Virus record (IMG/VR): IMGVR_UViG_3300043399_000179
Coordinates: 1 to 42,012 of that record
DNA: 42,012 nt
Source: a virus
Reading direction: 5' to 3' (one strand)
The stretch's first letter is position 1; the number at the start of each line of letters is the position of its first letter. Shown here piece by piece: positions 28,156 to 39,644 of this stretch. The notes under the pieces are model-generated. The model was not told where the DNA came from and did not search any database. It saw nothing but the letters and a program-made list of their open reading frames with translations. A program made the translations under genes and the position numbers.

Positions 28156-28615
28156 TATTTTATTCATAGAATCTGTTCTATCACCTGATCACTGCGAGAG
28201 ATTGATTAGCGATTTTATGATAGAACAAGTTGGTCCATCTCTAGACTATAATAAACTAGAACGTAAAAAAGTCACTGACAATACAATTGTAGTTGCTCTT
28301 GCTAAGAAATATGGTTTTGTTTATGACAGAGCATTTATACTTCGTTATAAGCAAGGTGACAAGAGCCCATTGCATGTTGATAATGTTTTTGTCAATAACT
28401 CCAAAATAGAATCACACGGCTGGATAAAGAGTGTTATTGTTTTCTTGAATGATAACTTTGAGGGTGGTGAGTTGGTGTATCCAGATCAAGGAGTTACCAT
28501 AAGACCAAAGGTTGGTAATATGGTCGTTGCTCCAGCTGATAGTAGTTCTCCGCATTATGTTACAGAGACTACCTCTGACCGTTATGTTCTTGTGTTACGT
28601 TTAGTTGACATGTAA
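28145..28615 (+). CDS. 2OG-Fe(II) oxygenase (prolyl 4-hydroxylase-like)
   Basis: A 156-residue dioxygenase with the 2-His-1-carboxylate triad: LHVDNVF (HxD), SPHYVTE (distal His), then Arg in DRYVLVLRL for 2-oxoglutarate. GWIKSVIVFLNDNFEGGELVY is the standard beta-strand core of P4H-like phage proteins. The substrate could be a protein or nucleic acid; unknown. It is the second such enzyme in the window, only distantly similar to the first. The consensus promoter of the tmRNA overlaps its end. Confidence 0.85.
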   Translation: MASNILFIESVLSPDHCERLISDFMIEQVGPSLDYNKLERKKVTDNTIVVALAKKYGFVYDRAFILRYKQGDKSPLHVDNVFVNNSKIESHGWIKSVIVFLNDNFEGGELVYPDQGVTIRPKVGNMVVAPADSSSPHYVTETTSDRYVLVLRLVDM

Positions 28616-28633
28616 TAAATATATAAGTATAAT
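28605..28633 (+). promoter_or_regulatory. consensus sigma70 promoter of the tmRNA gene
   Basis: TTGACA (28605-28610), 17-base spacer, TATAAT (28628-28633): a perfect match in both hexamers, the strongest promoter in the window. The -35 lies in the last codons of the oxygenase gene. Transcription should begin near 28640. Confidence 0.92.
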
Positions 28634-28639
28634 ATAAGT

Positions 28640-28980
28640 TATTGCTGTAATTCCTTCAAAGCGAAGGACTTCTGGACGGGGGTTCGACTCCCCCCATCTC
28701 CACCAAAAGCATCTATTCCCTTTAGTGAAACCCAAATGCTAGGGTGTAGCATTACTAAAGGGCGCAATGGGTGTTTTTGATGGGGATGCCATGGTTTCGA
28801 CAGGGGTAGATAGTAGCGACGGCAGCACGGTAGGCGATGACCGTAAATCAAGCAAACTAAGTAAATGCAAACGACAACGTTTTCGCATTAGCAGCCTAAT
28901 CACTGCTTAGGGTTTCGGTTGGTTTCCTCGTAACAGAATAACCAACCACTTTAAAGTATTGCCACAGCGGGTGCCAATAT
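28640..28980 (+). ncRNA. ssrA: circularly permuted (two-piece) tmRNA
   Basis: The 3' half precedes the 5' half. 28671-28705 holds a T arm (GGGGG TTCGACT CCCCC, 28678-28694), acceptor strand CATCTCC (28695-28701) and encoded ACCA. After an excised-looking spacer (28706-28781) with a hairpin (CCTTTAGT/ACTAAAGG enclosing AATGCTA/TAGCATT) comes acceptor strand GGGGATG (28782-28788), giving 7 pairs with a G3-U70 wobble, the alanine identity mark. GGTTTCGAC is the tmRNA D-loop. An ACGGT/ACCGT stem fits pseudoknot 1. The tag frame is at 28867, and GGTTGGTT/AACCAACC closes the coding piece. GCAGCA in the coding piece can pair with TGCTGT (28643) as helix P2. The 3' limit is approximate. Confidence 0.93.
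28867..28899 (+). other. tmRNA tag reading frame, peptide ANDNVFALAA
   Basis: Resume codon GCA after GTAAAT, then AAC GAC AAC GTT TTC GCA TTA GCA GCC TAA. With the alanine carried by the tRNA-like part, the tag is A-ANDNVFALAA. The E. coli tag is AANDENYALAA; the shared AND start and ALAA end are the SspB-side and ClpX-recognition ends of proteobacterial tags. Confidence 0.92.
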
Positions 28981-29015
28981 TATGAACAACAATATTTTTA
29001 AAGGAAAATTATAAA

Positions 29016-39197: not shown

Positions 39198-39644
39198 TTA
39201 TTTAGGTTGTTTGAGACCGAGTTCATATTCTGTTATGATCTTAAATTCCCACCCACGATCCTTGGCATACTCAGTTGCAGCTTTCCACTTGGCTTGGTTT
39301 TTTAAGAATGTCATTGATTCTGTTAGATAACGCTTGGTTTGTTTCCCTGGATACACAGGTGGAATCGTTTGAGCAGCTGGTTTTATCTCAACCAGATATG
39401 TTTTTAGAATACCGTCTGTTGTGCGAACTTGTATTTTAAAGTCAACAAAATAACGGTGGATATAGTTATCGGTTGGGCAACGATATGGGATTATGGTTTC
39501 CTCTGAACTCCATTTGACTATGTTCGGGTTTTTATCGCACCAATTTGCAAAACGAGTCTCCCAACTAGACCTCATTATGATATTTGATGGGTCTCCTGTG
39601 TATTTCTCTGGAAATACAGGTGTGTACTTTCTTTTATGGAACAT
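39198..39644 (-). CDS. 4: gp4-like head completion protein (nuclease fold)
   Basis: A 148-residue protein, the length of T4 gp4 (150). IIMRSSWETRFANWCDKNPN, VKWSSEETIIPYRCPTD, HRYFVDFKIQV and TYLVEIKPAAQ give an E...D...ExK nuclease-like arrangement seen in gp4/gp50 and TnsA-type folds. It completes heads after DNA packaging so tails can join. First gene of the minus-strand operon, with a late promoter upstream. Confidence 0.85.
   Translation of the reverse strand: MFHKRKYTPVFPEKYTGDPSNIIMRSSWETRFANWCDKNPNIVKWSSEETIIPYRCPTDNYIHRYFVDFKIQVRTTDGILKTYLVEIKPAAQTIPPVYPGKQTKRYLTESMTFLKNQAKWKAATEYAKDRGWEFKIITEYELGLKQPK

Follow-up and report, generated by a model that had tools for sequence, protein, structure and literature searches.

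One-piece tmRNA genes of phages have the standard, unpermuted gene order. Carried by phages like the gene analyzed here, they have been described in the mycobacteriophages Bxz1, its relatives and Wildcat, and in Bacillus phage G (PMC4131195). Two-piece tmRNAs were reported in 2022 in T4-like and other phages, with 53 found among 18,146 phage genomes and that of phage Melnitz described in detail (PMC9004378). In this work, we analyzed a 42-kb IMG/VR viral record (IMGVR_UViG_3300043399_000179), taken over its whole length of 42,012 nucleotides (hereafter, the window; GC 41%). As two-piece phage tmRNAs are already published (PMC9004378), the gene that it contains is to be seen as a beta-type variant of known phage genes, with a hairpin as spacer; its relatives, however, reveal a broader picture that is in part new.

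Melnitz, a T4-like phage of Methylophilales assigned to the Kyanoviridae (MZ577097), carries, like the window, a permuted ssrA with an intact tag, and both genes were found by the same models. The ends of the Melnitz spacer can pair and the spacer finishes in TGAT before the 5' piece, again as in the window. However, the Melnitz gene is of the alpha type (RF01849, 106.7 bits) and that of the window of the beta type; its tag is ANDNYVPVDYALAA instead of ANDNVFALAA; a glutamine riboswitch lies behind it, whereas none was found at the window gene (cmscan, all Rfam families); and its spacer of ~142 nt holds a candidate ORF, whereas the 76-nt spacer of the window is non-coding. With the permuted tmRNA of betaproteobacteria (RF01850), the window gene shares the gene order, the tRNA-like domain, P2 and the tag frame, although the former is bacterial and the latter phage-borne. 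They also differ in the spacer, which measures 25-256 nt in phages and 24-48 nt in nearly all the sampled bacterial genes (one was parsed as 239), and in the bases preceding the 5' piece, which are TGAT in 158 of 185 phage genes and mostly AGGT or GGGT in bacteria. As far as the literature searched shows, the finding of a family of beta-type genes among many uncultivated T4-like phages, also present without annotation in cultured Pseudomonas and Acinetobacter phages, is new.

Layout of the permuted gene

An intact circularly permuted ssrA gene occupies positions 28640-28953 of the window, on the + strand as are all its parts, with the tRNA-like 3' half preceding the 5' half and a spacer separating them. 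The initial annotation had proposed such a gene from the sequence alone; the observation is confirmed, and every element that it named was located where it had been placed. The 3' piece, which comes first (28640-28705), comprises a P2 strand, the T arm, the acceptor 3' strand and the encoded CCA, as delimited by ARAGORN, the Rfam models RF01850 and RF04321, and covariation. Within it, the P2a strand ACTTCTG (28668-28674) has its covarying partner, CAGGGGT (28801-28807), in the other piece; the T arm GGGGG TTCGACT CCCCC (28678-28694) is evident from the sequence, the Rfam match and pairing in relatives; and the acceptor 3' strand CATCTCC (28695-28701), which includes U70 and covaries with 28782-28788, is followed by ACCA (28702-28705). 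The 76-base spacer (28706-28781), defined by its fold, stem and end motif, is expected to be excised. The 5' piece opens with the acceptor 5' strand GGGGATG (28782-28788), so that the two acceptor strands pair in 7/7 positions with G3-U70 present, and continues to 28866 with the D-like region CATGGTTTCGACAGGGG (also given as GGTTTCGAC), P2 strands, the hairpin CGGT-AGGCGATG-ACCG and the resume region, all supported by ARAGORN, Rfam and covariation. The tag frame (28867-28899; GCA AAC GAC AAC GTT TTC GCA TTA GCA GCC TAA) encodes ANDNVFALAA, with a hydrophobic AA end and a TAA stop, and was placed both by ARAGORN and by alignment to the tag region of RF04321. The 3' remainder of the 5' piece, containing the hairpin GGTTGG...CCAACC (28900-28953), extends to the end of the RF01850 match.

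Covariance models, suggested beforehand as a check, scored far above threshold in the permuted arrangement: RF01850 (beta_tmRNA) gave 163.4 bits (E 8.5e-51) and RF04321 (tmRNA_permuted) 156.4 bits (E 2.2e-31) in a cmscan against all Rfam families, the gathering cut-offs being 84 and 47 bits, respectively. ARAGORN likewise called a permuted tmRNA* at 28613-28990 with the tag ANDNVFALAA. The alpha model reached 83.6 bits on the same gene vs. 163.4 for the beta model, and the gene is therefore assigned to the beta type by this direct comparison, beta also being the model reported within the clan.

The spacer hairpin noticed in the initial annotation proved real, with a folding energy of -32.8 kcal/mol (z -4.5 relative to shuffled sequences). 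The ends of the spacer form a 12-bp stem that encloses an inner hairpin, the spacer terminates in the family-wide TTGAT directly before the mature 5' end, and no ORF was found in it. Among 185 phage genes, the uninterrupted stem closing the spacer has a median length of 10 bp, compared with 2 bp in shuffles. Upstream of the gene, the predicted perfect promoter is also present: TTGACA-17-TATAAT at 28605-28633 (+ strand), which would drive the precursor, matches the sigma70 consensus in 12/12 positions and is the sole perfect match on either strand of the window. Promoters with at least 11/12 matches occur at a similar distance upstream of 45 of the 185 related phage genes and of none of the 185 shuffled upstream regions, an enrichment that points towards early transcription by the host polymerase.

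Conservation among phages and origin of the gene

The acceptor strands covary among related phages, the test by which the initial reading could have failed. As many as ten different fully paired forms of the 7-bp acceptor stem were found in 137 distinct phage genes (e.g., GGGGGTG/CACCTCC, GGGGATG/CATCTCC, GGGCCTG/CAGGTCC and GGGCTAG/CTAGTCC), collected with a parser that required 6 of the 7 acceptor pairs. Because of this selection, helices free of it carry more weight. In a set of 78 distinct phage rows, P2a, which joins the separated halves, was paired in 99.5% of the cells vs. a shuffled mean of 76%, with 13 further pair types, and the T arm in 100% vs. 82%; the values for P1 were 95% vs. 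78%, its pairs being, unlike those of P2a, partly selected by the parser. G3-U70 is invariant across the related phage genes, and most of them keep an intact tag ending in ALAA or a near variant. Unusually long tags of 23-31 residues were noted in L219, L222, L229, L271 and L405 (e.g., ANAKAITTEAEVMTFTWDLPANESRYALAA).

The genomic setting is that of a T4-like phage. The window encodes NAMPT, a UvdE-type endonuclease and an endolysin, and the tmRNA gene is flanked by the T4-type core genes for RIIA, PhoH, gp32, the T4 baseplate hub protein, gp53 and the tube cap protein; a protein with a TnsA-like endonuclease N-terminal domain is encoded amid the tail genes (39198-39644, - strand). Among cultured phages, cyanophages and pelagiphages come closest, at ~44-49% protein identity. 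They did not serve to name a host, as none is close and PhoH and baseplate proteins are at most ~49% identical. A DNA search against cultured phages matched only the T-arm/acceptor region, in 8 phages, and with the wider region only ssb was matched (Synechococcus phage S-CAM7, 74%). Contig L065, part of a 126-kb contig, is ~97.5% identical in DNA across long flanks and has a tmRNA at the same place. The mature halves of the two genes are nearly identical, but their spacers (76 vs. 115 nt) do not match and their tags differ (ANDNVFALAA vs. ANDSVYALAA), which indicates that spacer and tag evolve faster than their surroundings. When the neighbouring PhoH was used as IMG/VR query, 36 of the 80 loci retrieved had a permuted tmRNA downstream on the same strand, many of the remaining loci being fragments broken off near phoH; pattern scans revealed many further carriers. 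The tmRNA is absent from the available sequence of some related phages, such as L111 (a 157.7-kb contig), and is thus not essential to the group. Taken together, the covariance models, the covariation across the joint, the conservation in dozens of phages and the T4-like neighbours support the reading of the locus as a circularly permuted ssrA carried by a T4-like phage, its tag being intact.

Permuted tmRNAs that had escaped annotation were also observed in cultured phages of gammaproteobacterial hosts, namely the Pseudomonas Samunavirus phages PA_L9, UF_RH6 and PaMx31 (L212, L213 and L216), Stenotrophomonas phage BUCTxx99 (L214) and Acinetobacter phage BUCT628 (L215). All except L214 exceed the cut-off of the beta model, and their tags include ANDTSFDVRLAA and ANDNVFGAKTLAA. 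The beta type, hitherto described from some betaproteobacteria, is widespread among viruses, and phages of other hosts are among its carriers. Since these phages and Melnitz are cultured, maturation of the RNA and expression of nested genes are directly testable.

Regarding its origin, the initial annotation had proposed that the gene was transferred from a host with a permuted ssrA. Capture from such a betaproteobacterial host is in keeping with the best score being that of the beta model and with the composition of the sampled bacterial beta genes, which are mostly Rhodocyclaceae-like. However, diversity is greater among the phage genes than among the sampled bacterial ones, and phages of Pseudomonas, Stenotrophomonas and Acinetobacter, hosts outside the betaproteobacteria, have permuted genes too. 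Furthermore, in a quick tree based on the mature segments, rooted on 20 alphaproteobacterial genes and with rough bootstrap values, the bacterial beta genes fall inside the phage diversity. An origin in the opposite direction, from phages to bacteria, as read from the first tree, was not upheld by AU tests run after removal of odd and long-branched rows, in which monophyly could be rejected neither for the bacterial genes (p 0.996) nor for the phage genes (p 0.727). The direction of transfer is left undecided by the tree, and we regard betaproteobacterial capture as somewhat doubtful. A survey of permuted genes in Burkholderiales gave 17 of 300 above the cut-off, which is only a rough guide since the strict filter scored no more than 7 candidates per genome; at least three of the 17 (L196-L198) are one-piece according to ARAGORN, as are nearly all the lower-scoring loci.

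Proposed function of the phage tmRNA

We consider it highly probable (about 0.9) that a lytic T4-like phage has here a functional, circularly permuted ssrA of the beta type, whose RNA matures into two pieces and rescues ribosomes with the aid of host partners. Judging from its promoter, the gene would be transcribed early by the host sigma70 RNA polymerase. According to the computed fold and covariation, P1, P2 and the T arm would then fold the precursor into the tRNA-like domain, while the spacer ends zip up as the 12-bp stem adjoining the acceptor end. By analogy with known permuted tmRNAs, and in agreement with the anatomy of the gene, host RNase P would cut at 28781/28782 and the host 3' tRNA processing enzyme at 28705/28706, freeing the spacer and leaving two RNA chains joined through P1 and P2. 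The host alanyl-tRNA synthetase, on which we assume the phage to depend, would charge the molecule through G3-U70, and EF-Tu together with SmpB, also assumed to be that of the host, would deliver it to ribosomes that have come to a halt on broken mRNA. The ribosome would then move to the ANDNVFALAA frame and terminate, handing the tagged fragment over to host proteases. A likely benefit is that ribosomes blocked as mRNA decays in the infected cell would be recycled, with a supply of tmRNA independent of the host gene; charging, tagging and timing are, as this benefit, what we infer from the features described above. Ribosome rescue by two-piece tmRNA would accordingly be a recurrent function in uncultivated T4-like phages.

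With regard to the partners, searches for smpB were negative in the window record and in 17 related records, which are fragments or of uncertain completeness, and in three cultured carriers, whereas the control search was positive in 10 of 14 bacteria; the phage therefore presumably relies on host SmpB. The lack of a phage smpB would also fit a decoy, that is, a phage tmRNA that would bind SmpB and thereby block or dilute trans-translation by the host, and there is a precedent for it: the tmRNA of mycobacteriophage DS6A, reduced to the tRNA-like domain, is reported to inhibit the endogenous tmRNA in E. coli (PMC11915505, PMC4131195). Such a decoy would not need a tag frame, a resume region, a stop or the downstream hairpin, yet the window gene and most relatives have kept all of them intact, and the tag ends stay near ALAA, which makes this explanation improbable. 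That the locus is a nonfunctional captured host fragment or pseudogene, or bacterial DNA misassembled into a phage contig, is very improbable and already contradicted by the comparative data, since, although prophages integrating at host ssrA are known to contain pieces of it (PMC9004378), more than 100 distinct phage genes are complete with covarying helices and intact tags, T4-like phage genes lie on both flanks, and the 97.5% identical phage contig L065 has the tmRNA at the same place.

Genes nested in the spacers of relatives

Many relatives of the window gene harbour a real small protein gene, or a tRNA, within the spacer. In the 137 phage genes, a set not selected for spacer ORFs, an ATG-initiated ORF of 20 or more codons lies, together with its Shine-Dalgarno sequence, wholly within the spacer in 11 cases, vs. 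0.26 expected from shuffled spacers. We give the frequency for this set because the targeted scan, in which nested ORFs amounted to 40 of 185, chose genes with a Shine-Dalgarno sequence after the CCA. In the genes with nested ORFs, one strand of the closing stem contains the Shine-Dalgarno sequence and the other the last codons, and in 27 of the 40 the stop codon lies one base ahead of the mature 5' end. Differences between related ORFs number 0, 1 and 10 at codon positions 1, 2 and 3 for the pair L389/L428, and 9, 1 and 18 for L143/L303; their concentration at third positions shows that the nested ORFs code for protein. Carriers include L087, L143, L247, L317, L324, L375, L383, L386, L404, L449 and L477, among others. 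The L404 spacer ORF exceeds the Pfam cut-off for PGDYG, and no homologues of the L087 spacer protein were found in cultured phages.

A tRNA can also occupy this place: L104 (11582-11999) has a tRNA-Arg (CCG) with its own CCA inside the tmRNA spacer. Relaxed ARAGORN settings indicated tRNA-like folds in the spacers of L063, L085, L273 and L314 as well, but only that of L104 was also called at the normal threshold. A 2025 tmRNA database paper describes a single tRNA in an intervening sequence, which it calls unique; when its text was searched by term, no mention of protein genes in intervening sequences was found (PMC11915505). Our literature search, which left most subscription journals uncovered, found no report of protein genes nested in tmRNA spacers.

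These observations allow us to propose, tentatively, that the permuted tmRNAs of phages make up a large family maintained by phages, with the excised spacer serving as an exchangeable slot for small protein genes, tRNAs or, as in the window, a hairpin only. The nested protein genes have their Shine-Dalgarno sequence in the 5' strand of the closing stem and often their stop one base before the mature 5' end. RNA processing and nested expression would be coupled, and some two-piece ssrA genes of betaproteobacteria might be phage-derived. Permutation would thereby acquire a possible use, the nesting of a gene within an RNA gene.

Some further observations concern particular spacers. In Melnitz, whose tmRNA is annotated at 45984-46436, the Shine-Dalgarno sequence and ORF in the spacer are unannotated; the candidate ORF, read by eye, begins MFKWLSKTRLVVITRDYF... 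(also MFKWLSKTRLVVITRDYFRERNRKADAKIPKYL...) and continues into the 5' piece. In our copy of this locus (L508), the spacer lies between CCACCA at ~1558 and the 5' piece at ~1707. Finally, a GOLLD RNA was observed at 10928-11336 of L435, a 286-kb viral contig, where ~4 kb separate it from a permuted tmRNA that harbours a nested ORF.
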